A stretch of 34,151 nucleotides of DNA from an uncultured Caryophanales bacterium (GTDB lineage: Bacteria > Bacillota_I > Bacilli_A > RF39 > UBA660): positions 1 through 34,151 of the forward strand of contig CAMODE010000042.1 of assembly GCA_946611235.1 (NCBI GenBank), read 5' to 3'. The notes under the pieces were generated by a model, which saw only the letters and a list, made by a program, of their open reading frames with translations, searched no databases and was not told the origin of the DNA. How positions within the stretch are numbered: position 1 is the stretch's first letter; each line of letters begins with the position of its first letter. A program made the position numbers and the translations under genes. This document shows positions 3,461 to 27,027 of this stretch, in pieces.

Positions 3461-4003
3461 TCATATAGTTCTCTTTCTAGTATATAGATGGCACCCAGAT
3501 AAAGCAGTCTCACTATTTTTCTCTAGCTTTGATTTATCTTTATAATACAAAATATTTATAATATTCTGTAGATGTTTATTTCTTGATTGTACATCTATTC
3601 CATATTCATGTAACAAATCATTTATCCTTAATTCATCATATAATAATAAGTCTTCATTACTATTGAATATGATATCTTCTTTTTTATCAAATTTTAGTAC
3701 TATTATCATACAGTCTTTATATATTTCATAATATGATGAATTTTTATCTCCTGATATATTATAATTTCCAAATATATTATTTTCATCCCTAATAGTTATT
3801 TTTCCCTTTTTATTATGGAAATTTTGATTTTCTAAAAAATTTAAAACAAAATTTAGATATGCATCTGCATATTTTTTTATTACTTCTTCTTGATGTATTA
3901 AAATTGCATTAATTTTACTATCAAATAAAGTAATTAAATTTTTATGAAGTTTAATTTTTAATTTTCCTAATTCTCTTAATTTCATATATTCTTCTTGATT
4001 CAT
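3461..4003 (-). CDS. Unknown protein, 180 aa, coiled-coil paralogue B
   Basis: Family not recognised. The N-terminal ~45 residues form a lysine-rich helix. KYADAYLNFVLNFL follows, then a conserved middle with NNIFGNYNIS, then YDELRINDLLHEYGIDV, and the protein ends in YTRKRTI. The neighbour at 4037-4582 has matching blocks in the same order (NNVFGNYNIS, YDELMINDILYFYGIDV, HTRKRDE), so the two are clear tandem paralogues. The protein at 2193-2717 is a more distant one. There is no membrane segment. AAGGAG lies just upstream of the ATG. The 33-nt gap to the upstream gene, without a clear promoter, suggests co-transcription. Confidence 0.75.
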   Translation of the reverse strand: MNQEEYMKLRELGKLKIKLHKNLITLFDSKINAILIHQEEVIKKYADAYLNFVLNFLENQNFHNKKGKITIRDENNIFGNYNISGDKNSSYYEIYKDCMIIVLKFDKKEDIIFNSNEDLLLYDELRINDLLHEYGIDVQSRNKHLQNIINILYYKDKSKLEKNSETALSGCHLYTRKRTI

Positions 4004-4036
4004 ATATTTATTACTCCTTTAATATTTAATAAATTA

Positions 4037-4582
4037 CTATTCATCTCTTTTTCTTGTATGTATTCTTCCTGCTCCATCAAACCATGTTTCAGTATTTTTT
4101 TGTAGGTACTTTTTATCTTTATAAAAAGTAATATAGATAACATTTTTATCAATTGTATTTTTTAATTTTACATCTATTCCATAAAAATATAATATATCAT
4201 TTATCATTAATTCATCATACAAATCTTTATCTTCATTGACATTAAAATTTATTTGCTCTTTAGTATCAAATCTTAGGGCTATATATAGCATACTAAAATC
4301 TCTTGCAAATCTGTATGTTGATGGTTTTTCGTTGTTACTAATATTATAATTTCCAAATACATTATTATCTACTCTTGAGGTAATCGAACCACTATAAGAA
4401 AGATAAGTTGGATTAGATAATACTTCTTCAACTATTTTATAATATGCTTTTGCATACTTTATAGCTATTTCTTTCTTTTTAGCTAATAATTCTTTTTTTG
4501 AAAGTTCATTTGCCTTTTGTTCTTCACTTAATTTATTTACTTTATAAGTAAATATGCTGTCTAATTTGTCTACTTCATTCAT
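4037..4582 (-). CDS. Unknown protein, 181 aa, coiled-coil paralogue C
   Basis: This is the first gene of the leftward cassette and the closest to oriC on its left side. Residues ~1-45 are a charged helix with coiled-coil character. KYAKAYYKIVEEVL (about 42-55) follows, NNVFGNYNIS is at 73-82, YDELMINDILYFYGIDV at ~122-138, and the C-terminus is HTRKRDE. The C-terminal (H/Y)TRKR motif is shared with the 180-aa paralogue. Function is unknown and no catalytic motif is evident. GAGGAG precedes the ATG, and a promoter lies at 4609-4637. Leftward transcription is co-directional with the left replication fork. Confidence 0.75.
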   Translation of the reverse strand: MNEVDKLDSIFTYKVNKLSEEQKANELSKKELLAKKKEIAIKYAKAYYKIVEEVLSNPTYLSYSGSITSRVDNNVFGNYNISNNEKPSTYRFARDFSMLYIALRFDTKEQINFNVNEDKDLYDELMINDILYFYGIDVKLKNTIDKNVIYITFYKDKKYLQKNTETWFDGAGRIHTRKRDE

Positions 4583-5006: not shown

Positions 5007-5043
5007 AATTATAATGAAATCTTGAGGTAGGGAGGTTTTGCTT

Positions 5044-6408
5044 ATGAATACAGAAGCACTATGGAATAGTTTTCTTGAAAAAATTAAAGATCGCATATCT
5101 CCTTTATCTTATGATACTTGGTTTAAAGATACTAAACTTCATAGTATGGATGGTGGAGTTGCTACTGTTGTTGTTCCAATGATACTACATAAAAAGCATT
5201 TAGAAGAGAATTATTTAGATGATATTGAAGAAGTCTTTAATGCCATTACTGGTACTAATTTTACATTTGTCTTTAAATTAGAAAGTGAATTAGAACCAGT
5301 ACAAAGAATAGTAGAAGTTAGTGAGTTATCAACAGAAACTGTTGGTGTACCATATCAAAGTAGTGCTTCTGCTAATCTAAATAGTGAATATACTTTTGAT
5401 ACCTTTATGGTAGGAGACTCTAATAGATTTGCTTTTACAGCTGCTAGAGCAGTAGCAGAAAAGCCTGGTAAAGCTTATAATCCGTTATTCTTATATGGTA
5501 ATAGTGGACTAGGTAAAACGCATTTAATGCATGCTATTGGTAATTATATTATAGAAAATTCTAATAAAAAGGTATTATATGTATCTAGTGAACAATTTGT
5601 AAATGATTATATATATGCTGTTAGAAATAATGATAAGAATAATTATGAAAAGATTGATTTATTTAAAAGTAAATATCGAAATATTGATGTATTAATAATT
5701 GATGATATACAGTTTTTAGGTTCTGCTACTAAAGGACAAGAAGAATTTTTCCACACCTTTAATCAATTACATGATTCTAATAAACAGATAATTATAGCTT
5801 CCGACAGATCTGTTGATGACTTAAAGATGCTTGAGGATAGACTTAGAACAAGATTTAATTGGGGATTAACCGCTAATATTACTCCTCCTGATTTCGAACT
5901 GAGAGTCAATATAATAAAGAAAAAAATATCACATCAAGAAGCTGCGGAAGATATACCAATAGAAGTAATTGAGTATATTGCTAATATTAATGACTCAGAT
6001 GTTAGACAATTAGAAGGTGCAATAACAAGAGTATTTGCCTATGCTCTTATGATGAATAGGGGTATTGTTACCTTAGAAATAGCCGTAGAGGCTCTTAAAG
6101 ATAAGGTAAGTGAAAAAAGTGTCTTTAAGAATGATGTCCATAGGATACAGAGGATAGTTTGTGAGTACTTTAAAATTGATATAGAAGATTTAAAAGGAAA
6201 GAAAAGAAGTAAAGATGTCAACTATCCTAGGCAGATAGCTATATATCTGTGTAGAGAAATGACAAATGAATCATTTCCAAAGATGGGTACTTATTTTGGA
6301 GGAAGAGATCATTCCACAATAATTAGTGCATATCAAAGAATACAAAGAGATTTAAAGGTAAATAGTCAACTACAAACAGTAATAAATGAATTAAAAAACA
6401 GGATATAG
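5044..6408 (+). CDS. dnaA: Chromosomal replication initiator DnaA
   Basis: The 454-residue protein has all four DnaA domains. These are an N-terminal DnaB/SirA-interaction domain (LWNSFLEKIKDRISPLSYDTWF), a short linker, and an AAA+ domain with Walker A GNSGLGKT at 152-159 and Walker B IIDDIQF with D220/D221. The C-terminal DNA-binding domain has the box-recognition signature GGRDHSTI at about 419-426. It binds the 9-mer boxes on both sides of the gene, melts the origin and loads the helicase. ATG 5044 is preferred over TTG 5038 because GGAGG (5031-5035) lies 8 nt from it. A dnaA-dnaN unit is likely. Length and motifs are normal. Confidence 0.98.
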   Translation: MNTEALWNSFLEKIKDRISPLSYDTWFKDTKLHSMDGGVATVVVPMILHKKHLEENYLDDIEEVFNAITGTNFTFVFKLESELEPVQRIVEVSELSTETVGVPYQSSASANLNSEYTFDTFMVGDSNRFAFTAARAVAEKPGKAYNPLFLYGNSGLGKTHLMHAIGNYIIENSNKKVLYVSSEQFVNDYIYAVRNNDKNNYEKIDLFKSKYRNIDVLIIDDIQFLGSATKGQEEFFHTFNQLHDSNKQIIIASDRSVDDLKMLEDRLRTRFNWGLTANITPPDFELRVNIIKKKISHQEAAEDIPIEVIEYIANINDSDVRQLEGAITRVFAYALMMNRGIVTLEIAVEALKDKVSEKSVFKNDVHRIQRIVCEYFKIDIEDLKGKKRSKDVNYPRQIAIYLCREMTNESFPKMGTYFGGRDHSTIISAYQRIQRDLKVNSQLQTVINELKNRI

Positions 6409-11416: not shown

Positions 11417-13978
11417 ATGGAAGAAGAAAAGAAAAATGATGTATATGATGAAGAACTAGAAAAAGTTAATGTTTCAAGTGATTTTAATGGTTATTTTCAT
11501 GAAAGAGATAGTCTTGCTGAGAATAATATTGTTGATGAAGTTAAAACTTCTTTTCTAGAATATTCAGTTAGTGTTATTAAATCGAGAGCTTTACCTGACC
11601 TTAGAGATGGTTTAAAGCCTGTTCATAGACGTATTTTATGGTCGATGTATGAAAGTGGTTATACTCCTGATAAACCTCACAGGAAGAGTGCTAAAACGGT
11701 CGGAGAGGTTATGGGTAATTATCATCCTCATGGTGATAGTTCAATATATGAAGCAATGGTTAGAATGGCTCAAGATTTTAGTCAAAGATACATGCTTATT
11801 GATGGTCATGGTAACTTTGGTAATATTGAGGGTGATGGAGCCGCTGCTATGCGTTATACCGAGTCGAGGTTATCTAAATTATCATTAGAACTTCTTAGAG
11901 ATATTAATAAGGATACTGTTGATATGGATGATAACTTTGATGCTACGAGAAAAGAACCTGCAGTACTTCCAAGTAGATTTCCTAATGTACTTGTTAATGG
12001 TACAATGGGAATTGCTGTTGGTATGGCTACAAATATTCCACCACATAATTTAGGTGAAGTAATTGATGGATGTGTTGCTTTTATTGATAATCCTGATATT
12101 GATACTTTAGGATTAATGCAACATATTAAAGGACCAGATTTTCCTACTGGTGGCGTAATACTTGGTAATTCTGGTATTAAAAAAGCTTATGATACTGGTA
12201 GGGGTACTATAACTATTAGAAGTAGAGCTACGATTGAGGATGAGGGTAATCATCAAAATATTGTTATAACTGAAGTTCCTTATGGCGTTAATACGATGGA
12301 ACTTAAGAATAGAGTAGCAGAACTTGTTCATAATAAGATTATTGATGGAATATCTGACTATCATACTGATTTAAAGAATGGTGTAAAAATTACTATTACA
12401 TTAAAAAAGGATGCTAATGCTCAGGTTGTTCTTAATAATTTATACAAACATACTAATTTTCAAATATCTTATGGTATTATCTTCTTAATGCTTGATGGAT
12501 TAACTCCTAAAACTTTAGGACTTAAGGATATTATTTCTAAATATATTGATCATCAAAAAGAAGTTATTATTAGAAGAACTCGTTTTGATCTTGCTAAGGC
12601 TGAAAAGAGAGTTCATATTTTAGAAGGTTATAAGATAGCTCTTGATAATATTGATGAAGTTATTCAAATTATTAAGAATGCTGAGAGTGATGTTGAAGCT
12701 AAGCAAAAACTTATTTCGAGATTTAATTTAACGGAAGTTCAATCTGATGCTATTCTTGAATTAAAACTTCGTAGATTAACTGGTTTAGAAAGAGATAAGA
12801 TAGAAAATGAACTTGCTGAACTTCTTAAGACTATTGAAGAATTGAAGGCTATTCTTGCTGATACGCAAAAGGTTCTTAATATTATTAAAGAGGAAATGCT
12901 TGAAATTAAGAGTAGATTTGCTGACGAAAGAAGAACTTCTATTGATATGACTGCGATTGATTATATTGACGATGAATCTTTGATTCCTGTTGAAAACAGC
13001 GTTATTACTCTTACTAATAAGGGTTATATTAAGAGACTTGCTTCTGATACTTATAAAACACAAAATCGTGGTGGTATGGGAATTAAAGGAATGACTACGA
13101 ATGAAGAAGATTTTGTAGAGCATATGATCAATGCTACTACCCATGATTATATATTGATGTTTACTAATAGGGGTAAGGTATATAGAATTAAAGGTTATGA
13201 GATTCCAGAGTTTAGTAGGCAATCCAAAGGTCTTCCTATTATTAATTTACTTTCACTTGAGAAAGATGAAAAGGTTACATCCCTTCTTAAGATTTCTAAT
13301 GATGATGAGTATAAATACTTAGTATTTGGTACGAAGAGTGGACTTATTAAGAGAACTGATATTGCTGAATTTGATAGTATTAGGAATAATGGTAAGAAGT
13401 TTATTACTTTAAAAGATGATGATGAACTTGTATCTGTTAAGAAAACTACTGGTAATAATGAAATTCTTATGGCTGGTTCAAATGGTAGAATGGTTAGATT
13501 TAAAGAAGATAGTGTTAGAGTTATGGGTAGAGGTGCTACTGGTGTTAAAGGTATTAACTTAGATGGTGGATATCTTGTTGGTATGGAAGTAGCTATTGAA
13601 AATGAGAATATTCTTGTTGTTACGGAAAAGGGTTATGGTAAAAAGACTCCAACTTCTGAATATAGATTAACTAATAGAGGTGGAAAAGGTGTTAAAACGC
13701 TCAATGTTACTGATAAGAATGGTTCATTAGTTACATTTAAGTCTGTTGATAGTGATAAGGATATTATGATCATAACTGATTCTGGTATTGTTATTAGATT
13801 GGATTCTGATAATATTTCTACCATGAGCAGGGTTACACAAGGAGTTAGACTTATCAATCTTAAGGAAAATAATCTTGTTAGTTCAGTGGCCCTTGTTGAT
13901 AAAGAAAATTCAGAAGAAATTATTGATGCTGGTGAATCTATTGAAAATAGTGATAATGATAACGAAGAGAGTAATTAA
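11417..13978 (+). CDS. gyrA: DNA gyrase subunit A
   Basis: The 853-residue GyrA has an N-terminal acidic/charged extension of about 25 residues relative to E. coli and its catalytic tyrosine at Y147 in GAAAMRYTE. The quinolone-determining region reads [12 protein letters not shown], with S108 and E112 at the positions equivalent to E. coli S83 and D87, the usual Gram-positive residues. The C-terminal beta-pinwheel contains GyrA-box-like sequences (NRGGMG, then NRGGKG) and ends in an acidic tail, as in B. subtilis. It breaks and rejoins DNA in the gyrase tetramer. The start follows AAGGAGG, 14 nt after gyrB. Just past the stop are a GAGAGT/ACTCTC hairpin and a 36-bp palindrome. Confidence 0.98.
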
Positions 13979-13990
13979 TACTCTCTTTTA

Positions 13991-14026
13991 TTATTAGAAT
14001 TATTTCCCGGGAAATAATTCTAATAA
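13991..14026. promoter_or_regulatory. Noc-type binding site in a 36-bp perfect palindrome
   Basis: TATTTCCCGGGAAATA (14001-14016) equals the Noc-binding consensus. It sits at the centre of a perfect inverted repeat whose arms run 13991-14008 and 14009-14026, starting 12 bp past the gyrA stop. Noc is the nucleoid-occlusion paralogue of ParB. The extended palindrome could also fold in RNA and help end gyrA transcription. The noc gene is not in the window. Confidence 0.75.
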
Positions 14027-14127: not shown

Positions 14128-14159
14128 CTATTAATTATTTCCTGGGAAATAATTAATAG
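14128..14159. promoter_or_regulatory. Second Noc-type site, one central mismatch
   Basis: TATTTCCTGGGAAATA (14136-14151) differs from the consensus only by C to T at the centre. It lies in a 32-bp near-perfect palindrome (CTATTAATT... to ...AATTAATAG). It is 135 bp from the first site and just ahead of the SRP RNA promoter. Confidence 0.65.
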
Positions 14160-14216: not shown

Positions 14217-14222
14217 CTTGTT

Positions 14223-14303
14223 GATACAACATTAATTAGTGGAACCAGGTCAGGGATGGAAATCAGCAGCCTTAACATTCTATTAATGTGTGTATCTTTT
14301 TTT
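14223..14303 (+). ncRNA. ffs: Small signal recognition particle RNA (4.5S type)
   Basis: The conserved helix-8 core AGGTCAGG, stem-loop GAT-GGAA-ATC and AGCAGCC lies at about 14238-14270. The GGAA tetraloop is closed by three perfect pairs, and the AGGTCAGG/AGCAG internal loop matches bacterial SRP RNA. The 5' strand GATACAACATTAAT pairs with 3' ATTAATGTGTGTATC. The tract TTTTTTT at 14297-14303 gives an intrinsic end. With Ffh it targets nascent membrane proteins. The gene lies upstream of tadA, separated from it by the parS array; in Bacillus it lies between tadA and dnaX. At about 80 nt it is the short form without an Alu domain. Confidence 0.9.
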
Positions 14304-15063
14304 ATGTTCCACGTGGAACATAAAACTTATTTTGAATTATTACAAAGTACTATATATTTAATTATTTTTAATATTTTAATTATAAATGTTAATTCATGTT
14401 CCACGTGGAACATGAATAACCACACTAATTTTTTTTTATAGATTTACTTAAGCTTTATATATCTTTTGTTTAATTTAAAAATAAAATTTTTTACATATCA
14501 TTTATCTCTTATGTTCCACGTGGAACATAAGTTTATTTTATTTATTACAAAATATAATTATTTTTTATTATTTTATTAATTTAAAATGTGTTAATTTTAA
14601 ATATGACTTCATGTTCCACGTGGAACATGAAGATCCACACTAATTTTTTTTGATAGAATTACTTATGTTTTATATATTTTTTGTTAATTATTATTTTTGT
14701 CTTATGTTCCACGTGGAACATAAGAATATTATGTTTACTATAAAATACATTTTTTTATTATTTTATTATTTTAAAATGTGTTAATTATAAATATGATTTC
14801 ATGTTCCACGTGGAACATGAACATACCCAGATATGGCGAATTATATTATTTATAATATTTAAATAATTAATTTTGACTTGATCTATTTTTATATTTAACA
14901 ATCATTGCTCTTTTTTTATACTATTTCATGTTCCACGTGGAACATAAGTAATTTAATTATCTGTAGACTTTATATTTGTTTCTAGTGATAGCTTATTATG
15001 TTGATAACTGTTGATTGTGATATAAATGCATGTTAATATTTTTATATGTTCCACGTGGAACAT
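14304..15063. repeat. parS: Array of eight identical parS sites in tandem units
   Basis: ATGTTCCACGTGGAACAT occurs eight times without a mismatch, at 14304, 14396, 14511, 14611, 14704, 14801, 14928 and 15046 (first base). The 16-bp core TGTTCCACGTGGAACA is a fully symmetric version of the ParB-binding parS consensus TGTTNCACGTGAAACA. Spacings are 92-127 bp. Sites alternate between TTATG...CATAA and TCATG...CATGA flanks, and spacers repeat with a period of about 200 bp (TAAAATGTGTTAATT and CCACACTAATTTTTTTT recur), so the array grew by duplication of a two-site unit. ParB loaded here would organise origin segregation and SMC recruitment. The parAB genes are not in the window. Confidence 0.92.
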
Positions 15064-15078
15064 AAGTAGGTGATGTTG

Positions 15079-15507
15079 ATGGATGAATATTTTATGAATA
15101 TGGCTTTAGAAGAAGCTAAATTAGCTTATGAAATTGGAGAGATTCCTGTTGGATGTGTTATTGTTAGAAATAATGTCATTATTGCTAAATCTCATAATTG
15201 TAAAGAATGTAAGAAGAATTCTGTTATGCATGCTGAGTTGTCGGCTGTTGATAGAGCATGCCAGGTTGTTGGGGATTGGCGGCTAGATGATTGTATTCTA
15301 TATACTACATTAGAACCTTGTATGATGTGTATGGGAGCTATTATAGAAAGTAGAATACCTAAGGTTTTTTATGGAACAAAATGTAAGAACGAACAAATGT
15401 ATGATGTTGATAAAATTTCTGCTAAGAAAATTACCATTGTTAATGTTCGGGATGAGCGGTGTTCAACTATTTTGAGTGATTTTTTTAAAAATAAAAGGAA
15501 AAAATAA
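15079..15507 (+). CDS. tadA: tRNA-adenosine-34 deaminase TadA
   Basis: The 142-residue zinc deaminase has the catalytic HAE motif (VMHAELSAVDRAC) and PCxxC (TLEPCMMCMGA), which bind zinc and activate water. It converts A34 to inosine in tRNA-Arg(ACG), and may act on further tRNAs. IGEIPVGCVIV and the C-terminal DFFKNKRKK are typical. ATG 15079 is preferred over GTG 15070 because TAGGTGAT lies just upstream. The last parS site ends 16 nt before the start. The gene uses CGG for arginine three times (tgg-cgg, gtt-cgg-gat-gag-cgg), unusual beside AGA-dominated neighbours. Confidence 0.95.
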   Translation: MDEYFMNMALEEAKLAYEIGEIPVGCVIVRNNVIIAKSHNCKECKKNSVMHAELSAVDRACQVVGDWRLDDCILYTTLEPCMMCMGAIIESRIPKVFYGTKCKNEQMYDVDKISAKKITIVNVRDERCSTILSDFFKNKRKK

Positions 15508-15534: not shown

Positions 15535-15564
15535 TATTTCGATAGTTACATGGAGGTGAGGTTT

Positions 15565-17247
15565 ATGAGTTATTTAGCATTATACAGAAAGTATCGACCT
15601 TCTGATTTTGATAGTGTTTATGGGCAAGAAGAGGTTGTTACTGTTATTAGAAATGCTATTCTTAATAATAAGATTTCCCATGCTTATCTTTTTAGTGGAC
15701 CTAGAGGAACTGGTAAAACTACTATTGCTAAAATTATTGCTAAACTTGTTAATTGTGAACATTTAGAGAATGGTAAACCATGTGGAAAATGTTATAATTG
15801 TCTTAATTTTTCTAATAGTAATGATATTGTTGAGATTGATGCTGCTTCAAATAATGGTGTTGATGAGATTCGAGAGATAAGAGATAAGATTAATCTTGTA
15901 CCTAGTAATGCTAAATATAAAGTTTATATTGTTGATGAAGTTCATATGCTTACTAATCAAGCTTTTAATGCTCTACTTAAGACTTTAGAGGAACCTCCGA
16001 GTCATGTTATTTTTATATTGGCTACGACGGAGCCTCATAAAATTCCTTTAACTATTGCTTCTAGATGTCAAAAATTTAGATTTTCTAAAATTGATGACAA
16101 TAAGGTTGTTGATAGGTTAAAAGAAATATCTCAATTTGAAGGTATTACTTGTGATGATGATGCTTATTATGAAATTGCTAGACTTTCAGATGGATGTATG
16201 AGAGATGCTATTAATCTTCTTGATCAATTAGTGGCTTATTCTGATTCTCATATTACTTTGGAGGATATTTATAAAGTTAATGGATCGGTATCTTATAATG
16301 ATATTAATGAACTTCTAAATTATATTTATATTAATGATAAGACTAAAATTATTGAATTTGTTGATAATTTTGATAAATCTGGTAAAGAAATTAATAAGTT
16401 TATTGAGGAATTAATAATTTATATTAAGGATATTATTTTGTATAAAAATGCGGGATTTTTATCAAATATTAAGGTTAAAAATGAGAATATAAAAGTTATT
16501 TCTGATATTTTTTCTGATAAAGTTTTATATATGCTTGTGGATATGTTAAATAGTACTCAAAATAGTGTTAAAGCATCATCACATGGTTCGATATTGTTTA
16601 TGACTTCTATTCTTAATTTTGCTGAAAAGATTAATGTACAAGAACAGTGTAATAACTCTATAAAACAAGGCCAAGATGGGGTTAATAATAATGATTATAC
16701 TTCAAAGAATGTTGATATGGAAAATAAAATTATTTCCCGGGAAATAATTTCGAATGAAAACAATGTTGATAGCAGTAATATTTCTGAACTTAAAATAGAT
16801 TTGGATGGTAGAATTAATAATGCTTTAGCAGGAGCTTCTAAAGATATTTTGAAGATGTTTAAAAGTAAATGGAATTTAATTAATGATTATTTATTTGATG
16901 AAAAGTTTTCTTCGGTATGTGGTTTACTTAAGGATTCTAATGTTGTTGTTTCTTCTAGTGAATATATTATTATATCAAATAAGTTATCTTCTGTTGCATC
17001 TAGAATTAATTATAATAGTGAAATTATAGAAGAATTAATTGAGAAAATTTTTGATAATAAAGTCAAAGTAGTAGCGGTTTCTGAAGAAGAATGGTCTAAA
17101 ATTAAAAGTGAATATATTAATAATATTAAAAATGGTAAAAAGTATGTTTTTAAGAAATTGAATGAAAAGATTGAAAATGAAAAAGTTAAAACTCCAGTTG
17201 ATGATTTGATTGATTTGGTTGGAGAAAATGTTATTGAATATAAATAA
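15565..17247 (+). CDS. dnaX: DNA polymerase III gamma/tau subunit (clamp loader)
   Basis: The 560-residue AAA+ protein begins MSYLALYRKYRP. Walker A is GPRGTGKT at 45-52, a four-cysteine zinc module has C64, C73, C76 and C79, and Walker B/DExx is VDEVHML. SRC appears in TIASRCQKFRF, with domain III after it. Beyond about residue 360 there is a low-complexity linker, then a conserved C-terminal domain. It loads the beta clamp with HolA and HolB. ATG 15565 is chosen over ATG 15550 because GGAGGTGAG lies just upstream. I saw no programmed frameshift signal. The linker codons at 388-396 carry a perfect Noc-type site, including a rare CGG codon. Confidence 0.96.
   Translation: MSYLALYRKYRPSDFDSVYGQEEVVTVIRNAILNNKISHAYLFSGPRGTGKTTIAKIIAKLVNCEHLENGKPCGKCYNCLNFSNSNDIVEIDAASNNGVDEIREIRDKINLVPSNAKYKVYIVDEVHMLTNQAFNALLKTLEEPPSHVIFILATTEPHKIPLTIASRCQKFRFSKIDDNKVVDRLKEISQFEGITCDDDAYYEIARLSDGCMRDAINLLDQLVAYSDSHITLEDIYKVNGSVSYNDINELLNYIYINDKTKIIEFVDNFDKSGKEINKFIEELIIYIKDIILYKNAGFLSNIKVKNENIKVISDIFSDKVLYMLVDMLNSTQNSVKASSHGSILFMTSILNFAEKINVQEQCNNSIKQGQDGVNNNDYTSKNVDMENKIISREIISNENNVDSSNISELKIDLDGRINNALAGASKDILKMFKSKWNLINDYLFDEKFSSVCGLLKDSNVVVSSSEYIIISNKLSSVASRINYNSEIIEELIEKIFDNKVKVVAVSEEEWSKIKSEYINNIKNGKKYVFKKLNEKIENEKVKTPVDDLIDLVGENVIEYK
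16727..16750. promoter_or_regulatory. Noc-type binding site inside dnaX
   Basis: TATTTCCCGGGAAATA (16731-16746) is a full match, inside a 24-bp perfect palindrome that is read in frame as KIISREIIS. It encodes part of the variable DnaX linker, where protein constraint is weak, and forces a TCC and a CGG codon that are uncommon here. Confidence 0.75.
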
Positions 17248-25786: not shown

Positions 25787-26329
25787 ATGGAAGAAAATGT
25801 TTATTTATTTGTAGATAGTAGAGATATAAAAGAGGTTGATTTTCATCTTGTAGCATCAAAGGGAAAATATAATAGTTTTGTCAAAAGAGTTTTTCCTTCT
25901 TTGCAACACGATATAAAATATGAATATAAAGATATTGAACAGTATTTTATTGTTAATAGAGTTCCTGTTGATTTTAGAAAAATGGTTGTTATTTTACGTA
26001 GACCATTTACTTCAAATGTTGAGGCTGAAGAGTTATTTACTGGAATGCCTTTTAAAATTACTGGGTGTAATAGTTTTTTAAATTCTAAAATTAAAAAGAG
26101 CATTTTTGGTATTACTTGTTCTAATGATGTTGATTTTCATTATCATAAAATTGTATTTGATACTAGGGCAGTTTTTTTAGATATTGATGATGTCAAAAAT
26201 TTTTATTTATCATTATTAGATAACTATCTATTTGAAGAGTATATTTTTTCTTTGAATTGTTTAATAGGATATGAATATACAATTGATAAAGAAAAAGCAA
26301 AAGCAAAAGTTAAGAAACTTGAATCATAA
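25787..26329 (+). CDS. Unknown protein, 180 aa, first of a tandem pair
   Basis: Family not recognised. It starts with a hydrophobic strand (VYLFVD). The central core VPVDFRKMVVILRRPFTS with the following EAEELFTGMPF (about residues 59-89) is nearly the same in the downstream 170-aa paralogue. The rest differs strongly apart from a shared FYLSLL(D/E)N block. It contains no membrane segment or catalytic signature I can name. The Shine-Dalgarno GGAGGG (about 25762) lies roughly 20 nt from ATG 25787. A 7-codon frame starting at 25760 ends just before it, so re-initiation or a non-ATG start is possible. It has its own promoter and terminator. Confidence 0.75.
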   Translation: MEENVYLFVDSRDIKEVDFHLVASKGKYNSFVKRVFPSLQHDIKYEYKDIEQYFIVNRVPVDFRKMVVILRRPFTSNVEAEELFTGMPFKITGCNSFLNSKIKKSIFGITCSNDVDFHYHKIVFDTRAVFLDIDDVKNFYLSLLDNYLFEEYIFSLNCLIGYEYTIDKEKAKAKVKKLES

Positions 26330-26333
26330 TTAT

Positions 26334-26361
26334 GGATAATATTTATCTTTAATTTTTTTTT
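26334..26361 (+). terminator. Terminator module, copy 2
   Basis: GGATAA-TAT-TTATCT, then TTAA and T9, just past the stop of the 180-aa gene. Confidence 0.65.
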
Positions 26362-26463
26362 AGGTGACCGCTAGTGCTAACTCATTAACTATCGTTAATT
26401 CGCAGAAAGTCTTTTAGTGGAAGATTCCATTATATAGAGTTGATACTGGATAAATTAATTTTG

Positions 26464-26491
26464 TTGACTTATATTTTGAATAGTGTATAAT
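26464..26491 (+). promoter_or_regulatory. Promoter of the second paralogue
   Basis: TTGACT (26464-26469), 16 bp, TATAAT (26486-26491), followed by GGAGG and ATG 26515. Confidence 0.7.
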
Positions 26492-26514
26492 AATTTTATG
26501 GAGGTTTAGGAATA

Positions 26515-27027
26515 ATGGTAAAGAGGGCAAAAAATATATATTTATTAATGGATAGAAGTGATGTAAAAGAATTAAAGTCTCATCCAATTGATGAGAATAT
26601 AAAGGGGTTAATGAGGTTTCTTACAATACCAGAATATGACTATTTAGATACTGATAAATATTTTGAAAAAAATGGTATTCCAATAGAATTTAGAAAAATT
26701 GTAGTCATTTTACATAGACCGTTTACCTCAAATAAAGAAGCTGAAGAACTTTTTACTGGAATACCTTTTGATGTTTCTGGTTATACTAGATTTGTAAAAG
26801 ATAGAAGTAAGCAGATGTTTAGTGGTAGAACATATGGTAGTAGAGGTATTATGTTTACAACGAAGGCTAATCTTGTTGATTTTGATAGTATTAGAATATT
26901 TTACTTATCTTTATTAGAAAATAATCTATTTGAAAAATATATTAATTCTGTGAATAATTTGTTTAAGGCTGATTATTCATTAGATGAAGTAAAAGGAAAT
27001 ATTAAAGTTAAAATATTAGAACTATAA
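26515..27027 (+). CDS. Unknown protein, 170 aa, second of a tandem pair
   Basis: A paralogue of the 180-aa protein just upstream. The shared core is IPIEFRKIVVILHRPFTS with EAEELFTGIPF (about residues 55-85), the N-terminal strand is similar (IYLLMD), and FYLSLLENNLFEKYI is near the end. The region after the core is richer in basic residues (KDRSKQMFSGRTYGSRG). No known domain is recognised. GGAGG precedes the ATG. Protein divergence contrasts with identity of the upstream DNA, so the DNA has been kept or homogenised while the coding parts diverged. Confidence 0.75.
   Translation: MVKRAKNIYLLMDRSDVKELKSHPIDENIKGLMRFLTIPEYDYLDTDKYFEKNGIPIEFRKIVVILHRPFTSNKEAEELFTGIPFDVSGYTRFVKDRSKQMFSGRTYGSRGIMFTTKANLVDFDSIRIFYLSLLENNLFEKYINSVNNLFKADYSLDEVKGNIKVKILEL

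Follow-up and report, generated by a model that had tools for sequence, protein, structure and literature searches.

Chromosomal ParABS systems, of which Spo0J/parS of Bacillus subtilis and parS1-4 of Pseudomonas aeruginosa are the closest described examples, combine ParA and ParB with origin-proximal sites of one 16-bp palindrome family, and all of these features recur in the genome considered here. B. subtilis possesses 10 parS sites with the recorded consensus TGTTNCACGTGAAACA, and its ori domain contains 8 of these (PMC7022226), and in most bacteria clustered parS sites span 5-40 kb (PMC8357415). In P. aeruginosa the sequence TGTTCCACGTGGAACA constitutes parS2 and parS3, the sites of highest affinity there (PMC4368675). 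The second system of relevance is that of Noc, a paralogue of ParB, with its binding sites (NBS), which number about 70 or 41 in B. subtilis and Staphylococcus aureus, respectively. Jalal et al. assigned the two specificities to a few residues, with R173 and G201 going with parS, and Q173 and R201 plus lysine at either 179 or 184 going with NBS (PMC7383237). In S. aureus, where Noc controls initiation, all but one of the 41 Noc loci reside in the origin-proximal half (PMC5540599); Noc function depends on its membrane helix, and every homologue examined was predicted to have one (PMC4331003).

The window, the whole stretch of 34,151 nucleotides analysed here, derives from an uncultured Caryophanales bacterium of the family UBA660 and displays the gene order dnaA, dnaN, recF, gyrB, gyrA, ffs, parS array, tadA, dnaX, recR, the protein-coding genes being named from a reading of the proteins. 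The origin region is marked by dnaA (5038..6408, plus strand) 9 kb from the array, and gyrA (11417..13978, plus strand) forms the left edge of a conserved, putatively centromeric interval; the SRP RNA gene ffs (14218..14304, plus strand; RF00169, 51.6 bits) separates a pair of predicted NBS from the array, whose right edge is tadA (15070..15507, plus strand), and dnaX (15550..17247, plus strand) holds a third NBS. The 18-mer ATGTTCCACGTGGAACAT occurs in eight exact copies at 14304-15063 (0.01 expected from shuffled sequence, with a largest shuffle count of 1), with no ninth match in the window even at up to 3 mismatches, and these copies occupy the whole gap between ffs and tadA. Site 1 (14304..14321) shares one base with the end of the SRP RNA gene; sites 2 (14396..14413), 4 (14611..14628) and 6 (14801..14818) are set in symmetric TTC/GAA flanks, sites 3 (14511..14528) and 5 (14704..14721) in symmetric CTT/AAG flanks; at site 7 (14928..14945) the symmetry stops at the 18-mer, and six bases past site 8 (15046..15063) the tadA ORF opens. 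The preliminary description of this DNA, which had reported eight copies free of mismatches between the SRP RNA gene and tadA, each with GG in the right half, was accurate on these points, and its distance of about 9 kb from oriC holds provided that oriC adjoins dnaA with its start at 5038.

The exact 16-mer core TGTTCCACGTGGAACA was found eight times in the whole genome (1,268,614 bases, 62 contigs, 92.26% complete), each time within the array, although the copy number of eight depends on this one 62-contig assembly. No other parS with up to 2 mismatches is present in the assembled genome outside the array, and the next-best matches are six with 3 mismatches each, as compared with one for the reversed-pattern control. 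The array is thus the sole parS locus in the assembled part of the genome; the whole-genome search yielded neither copies of the 18-mer scattered far from the origin nor parS sites dispersed along much of the chromosome in the manner of B. subtilis. In contrast to B. subtilis parS, eight identical sites are gathered here at one locus within 0.76 kb, and their core is identical to parS2/3 of P. aeruginosa (PMC4368675).

Two ParB_N proteins, the products of parB and noc, are encoded in the genome, both on contig C33. The parB gene lies directly behind parA (L009:17200-18862), and the start of its product, KKALGRGLEEL, carries LGRGL, known as a ParA-binding motif (PMC12704722). The ParA protein matches NCBIfam ParA-type models with scores under their cut-offs, and an SMC protein is encoded with a score above its cut-off. 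Inspection of the ParB helix-turn-helix specificity residues, which the preliminary description had recommended, gave R-I-N-G, with arginine at the 173 equivalent and glycine at the 201 equivalent, i.e. the parS type; both residues are invariant in the ParBs that were read (21/29). Judged from these proteins, the genome encodes a canonical ParB, a ParA and an SMC, hence site, reader, motor and loop extruder, and the earlier assignment of the cluster as an origin-proximal, centromere-like group of parS-type sites is supported by the presence of ParA and ParB and by the lack of any other such locus in the assembled genome. The parAB genes are situated beyond rnpA in this genome, but in the relatives G052, G061, G083 and G021 one contig carries both parAB and the array, 26-88 kb apart; it seems that the operon has been relocated and the array has kept its place. 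Among 30 genomes bearing a parS array, one, G114, yielded no canonical ParB; this genome, 93% complete, has six identical sites of the symmetric C/G form that also occurs in the window, and a Noc and distant homologues were the ParB relatives found in it.

The family was surveyed in a sample of 145 genomes from 144 genera, the present one included. The strict pattern TGTTNCACGTGNAACA occurs in 117/145, amounting to 480 sites with a median of 4 per carrier. Long stretches were fetched for 40 of the 116 site-bearing relatives, selected among those with listed site positions, giving 41 loci together with the window, and in 41/41 the sites are located in the gyrA-tadA-dnaX interval (a few of them inside dnaX) or, where a contig breaks off, next to gyrA or tadA. 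The same gyrA-tadA-dnaX place was found in 10/10 additional loci, nine of which came from the 28 genomes devoid of the strict pattern; these nine hold 2-9 variant sites each, with mostly the outer base changed, and G067 features seven copies of TGTTTCACGTGAAACT at a period of 36-38 bp. A relaxed search gave matches, chance hits included, in 21 of those 28 genomes, its reversed control in 11/28, and the absence of strict parS in 28/145 genomes is therefore partly explained by variant sites.

Close to the array, a feature was found that the preliminary description overlooked, namely sites for Noc. A predicted NBS, ATTTCCCGGGAAAT (14002..14015), is located 23 bases past the gyrA stop, in the middle of a perfect palindrome of 36 bp, and could double as terminator stem of this gene; a second, with one mismatch (ATTTCCTGGGAAAT, 14137..14150), lies inside a longer near-perfect palindrome; and a third, exact by motif match (16732..16745), is located inside dnaX, where it reads NKIISREIIS. 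The first two flank the array about 290 and 150 bases to its left, and none is interleaved with the parS sites of the window. In the assembled genome, 4 exact NBS were counted (14002, 16732 and two on contig C60 near polC/polA), plus the one with a single mismatch at 14137; the sixth hit already has 2 mismatches. Across the family, exact NBS are found in 118/145 genomes (27/145 are devoid of them), 275 in total with a median of 1, and the reversed control of the pattern occurs in 0 of 145. The 41 genomes from which loci were fetched contain 88 NBS, with 14 inside the array, 40 no more than 1 kb and 60 no more than 5 kb away from it, as compared with ~0.2 within 1 kb expected by a hand estimate for uniform placement; 28/88 are more than 5 kb away or on other contigs. 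In 13 of the 41 loci, some of them cut by a contig end, the intergenic interval and dnaX hold no NBS with up to 1 mismatch.

The relatives differ in how the two kinds of site are interspersed. In G110 four NBS are positioned 28-29 bases after parS starts, and G004 displays a composite 66-bp repeat of NBS and parS with three alternations running up to the contig end (L303 9934-10107), where the assembly may have lost further copies. In G022, the outlier with 20 exact NBS, a 5.2-kb contig (L298 145-955) bears three parS sites flanked by four of these NBS. Since several arrays run into a contig end, assemblies of this kind can underestimate the number of parS and NBS.

The noc gene (L009:8628-9734, minus strand) belongs to a neighbourhood in the order rnpA, yidC, jag, mnmE, mnmG, rsmG, noc, where the names come from a reading of the sequences and from Bacillus gene order. 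Its product carries the specificity residues Q-K-T-R, the NBS type (by the key of PMC7383237), and Q, K, x, R are present in 30/30 Nocs read. In the tree all 32 Nocs, those of B. subtilis and Geobacillus thermoleovorans included, form one clade (support 98), with the family as a clade of support 70. Against NCBIfam TIGR04285 the protein scores 284.1 bits, under the curated cut-off of 315, and the curated nucleoid_noc cut-off is reached in 0/145 family genomes. The family Nocs (L197-L226) are long and variable, their readings spanning 343-661 amino acids, apart from one of 231 that is truncated where its contig stops; most Nocs from other families of the class have open frames of ~253-306 amino acids.

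The N-terminus deserves closer attention. The protein was aligned with the reference chains 7nfu and 7ol9, which we take to come from G. thermoleovorans and B. subtilis (partly after PMC8429893). Its residue 5 corresponds to residue 26 in the former and to residue 28 in the latter, such that the Noc of this genome begins at ~residue 22 and ~residue 24, respectively, an offset that implies that the segment of the membrane helix is missing. The nearest plausible start lies ~17-23 codons before the FQPR core in all 29 family Nocs considered (29/30 loci read, L208 left out), and no start codon is found more than 26 codons upstream in 25/29; a farther start is possible in four (L198, L212, L214, L220), with a partly hydrophobic stretch in L214 and L220. 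The family Noc therefore appears to be devoid of the N-terminal amphipathic membrane helix, as judged by alignment and length and not by a helix predictor. That such a loss is unique to the family was considered and rejected, since other families of the class also have Nocs of this kind: in 24/30 loci read, 16 have by eye a hydrophobic start of the MNIF, LNLF or MALF kind, 7 have none and 1 is unclear.

The best explanation overall, to which we assign a probability of roughly 0.8, is that the eight palindromes constitute a single ParB-loading centromere, probably shared with Noc. From the sites, the genes, their position and conservation, the specificity residues and the short N-terminus of Noc, we infer the following course of events. 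The array would be the single chromosomal centromere of the cell; each parS would be bound by ParB dimers, which would take up CTP, convert to closed, sliding clamps and occupy the gyrA-tadA region. ParA would then move the ParB complex and thereby segregate the origin, and the same complex would load SMC at one point. With all sites packed in 0.76 kb, one strong loading zone would result, and SMC would not be loaded at separate places. A suggestion made for B. subtilis is that clustering strong parS sites lowers the number of SMC collisions (PMC8357415), with which a single 0.76-kb array would agree. Noc, for its part, would load at NBS, which flank the array here and are interleaved with it in some relatives.

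As to what Noc does at such a centromere, the apparent lack of the helix and the concentration of few sites at the array make it most likely that the family Noc acts at the centromere or origin and not in a chromosome-wide, membrane-tethering occlusion. It may set a boundary to ParB spreading, control initiation as in S. aureus (PMC5540599), or serve occlusion via another anchor. A more specific proposal, which we put forward tentatively and at somewhat less than even odds, is that of a centromere with two proteins, ParB and Noc, side by side on a homogenised, satellite-like array, Noc being a second clamp free of a membrane tether and not an occlusion factor. Such an arrangement may be the ancestral state from which Noc evolved, or it may be derived, with an occlusion role lost. 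The Noc studies considered here concern species that have the helix and NBS by the dozen. What Noc did at its split from ParB would become testable in a large family of gut Bacilli whose Noc is seemingly devoid of the helix and has its sites among or beside parS.

The strongest competitor would be an ordinary parS array next to the normal origin-proximal sites of classical nucleoid occlusion, with Noc reaching the membrane by another route or through an unrecognised N-terminal stretch. Noc sites are indeed origin-biased in B. subtilis and S. aureus (PMC5540599), the Noc of this genome shares the well-supported clade (98) with those of B. subtilis and G. thermoleovorans, and 28/88 NBS are remote from the array. 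The resemblance to the described Noc-NBS systems extends to an identical NBS core and to the Q-K-x-R residues. The differences are that the segment of the N-terminal amphipathic helix is missing, that the NBS gather at the parS array, with 40/88 no more than 1 kb from parS and hence much tighter than an origin bias, and that the count, 4 exact and 1 with one mismatch in a family with a median of 1, falls far from the about 70 or 41 of the described systems, so that dozens of NBS over the chromosome were not found. Classical occlusion is on balance rather unlikely, and a ParB-loading centromere probably shared with Noc is preferred.

The anatomy of the array bears on how this centromere came about. 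The start-to-start distances of the sites are 92, 115, 100, 93, 97, 127 and 118 bases, not close to a common multiple of 10.5 by a hand check of helical phasing, and the spacers between the 16-mers measure 76, 99, 84, 77, 81, 111 and 102 bases with a G+C content of 8-21%. The alternation of flanks, TTC...GAA at sites 2, 4 and 6 and CTT...AAG at sites 3 and 5, indicates that a two-site unit of ~200 bp was duplicated. Along these lines, 14327-14470 and 14542-14685 are 78% alike and 14470-14577 and 14663-14770 are 76% alike; two successive stretches of the window, ~14507-14700 and ~14700-14897, both align to a single stretch of G140, a genome of the same genus, whose array comprises only four parS sites with three forms mixed.

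Could recent duplication alone, free of any selection on density, account for the identity of the eight sites? Duplicated units are evident from the repeat structure of the window, and relatives have tandem units of 27-66 bp. The eight cores, however, are identical, with 0/128 positions differing, while the duplicated units have drifted to 76-78%, and the sites are kept at the same locus throughout the family, such that this explanation is improbable. Pairwise alignments of the spacers are less informative on this point, because AT-rich sequence of this kind aligns well at random. The best explanation is that the array grew by tandem duplication and that its identity has been kept by selection together with homogenisation. 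The latter is also indicated by the distribution of forms among the 117 genomes, where the symmetric C/G form of the window accounts for 65/480 sites, the symmetric T/A form for 259 and others, a mixed class, for 156. Among the genomes with at least 3 sites, 49/82 hold one class only (8 C/G, 29 T/A, 12 'other'), whereas 10,000 shuffles averaged 7.1 and never exceeded 19, a procedure that ignores kinship of sites by duplication. As read from these sequences, the arrays are homogenised within a genome and different between genera. Bacterial centromeres are thereby seen to evolve as repeats homogenised within a genome and differing between genera. Eukaryotic satellites are likewise homogenised within lineages and different between them.

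The symmetry of the sites extends beyond the core. Perfect palindromes measure 24-26 bp at sites 1-6, 18 bp at site 7 and 20 bp at site 8, and over the window (14298-15067 and 13991-14026) and the family loci L042-L081 the mean symmetry past the core amounts to 3.45 bases for parS (154 sites) and 3.80 for NBS (70 sites), as compared with 0.49 and 0.47 for the controls. At flank position 3 of parS the pair is symmetric, yet the base differs from site to site. Either the true sites may be longer, or a repair of palindromes (quasi-palindrome correction) may keep the arms matched. A role of the parS palindromes as RNA terminators was considered and appears unlikely, since by eye the plus strand displays no T-run after the hairpins.

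For the palindromes at 14002 and 14137, an assignment as transcription terminators of gyrA and ffs, instead of Noc sites, has in its favour that the 36-bp inverted repeat at 14002 is perfect, lies just past the gyrA stop and is followed by a T-rich stretch. It is nevertheless quite improbable, for the 14-mer is identical to NBS, it recurs between or beside parS sites, and the reversed control pattern is absent from all 145 genomes. The same 14-mer is moreover present in exact form inside dnaX in 15 of the 41 loci, where the open frame gives ISREI at 13 of them and YFPGN at the other 2 (L043, L052); its retention in two frames, while the neighbouring residues differ, points to a constraint at the DNA level.

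The preliminary description had suggested a ParB with shifted half-site preference, on account of the GG in the right half. For a comparison, 12 ParBs were selected, 5 from all-C/G and 7 from all-T/A genomes, and none of the residues named as DNA contacts (in the accessible part of PMC7383237) splits the two groups. The columns that do so correspond to positions 35, 180, 253 and 266 of the ParB of this genome; position 180 is within the helix-turn-helix region, yet neither it nor the other three is a named DNA contact, and with so few proteins all four are likely due to chance. That the cluster reflects an altered ParB specificity, TGTTCCACGTGGAACA set against TGTTTCACGTGAAACA, is thus hardly credible, in spite of the GG at all eight sites that departs from the B. 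subtilis consensus TGTTNCACGTGAAACA (PMC7022226), because family genomes alternate between C/G and T/A forms, three forms coexist in the one array of G140, no named contact residue distinguishes the groups, and the C/G form is a strong site in P. aeruginosa (PMC4368675). As arrays are homogenised within genomes and differ between genera, and as P. aeruginosa relies on the identical 16-mer, no shifted ParB need be invoked.

Dense arrays as such are widespread. Genome contigs were scanned for groups of three sites in ~260 bp, with gaps of 75-105 bases, which gave at least 115 stretches from many groups, including Bifidobacterium, Flavobacterium, Treponema, Acidobacteria and Achromobacter, so density alone is not peculiar to the UBA660 family. 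Like the array of the window, they have at least 3 sites within ~260 bp, often of one form, and the C/G form recurs among them. Among the 115 listed, 46 were assigned to the gyrA/tadA type by a mechanical rule that also took in a few from other groups; of the 69 others, the stretch that was fetched includes parA or parB in 36, mnmG, mnmE or rsmG in a further 8, and neither in 25. NBS are found in 21/46 of the gyrA/tadA type (42 sites), at least 3 of the 46 loci (L104, L142, L163) being family genomes already within the 41, as compared with exact NBS in 0/69 of the others, in both cases among the matches listed. Plasmid centromeres made of tandem repeats, such as sopC of F, likewise comprise many identical ParB sites in less than 1 kb. 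The array of the window differs from these in being of the chromosomal parS type and on the chromosome, with parAB on another contig. It is a real feature and an element of a known kind in an unusually dense and homogenised form. In a partial coverage of the open-licence literature, by titles and the starts of abstracts, no report was recognised of parS and NBS co-clustering, of a Noc devoid of the helix, of parS beside gyrA, or of concerted parS evolution.

Finally, the window also contains two tandem pairs of small proteins, alike within each pair by eye, at 3461-4582 and 25787-27027; the former lies on the minus strand to the left of dnaA, where the GC skew reverses.
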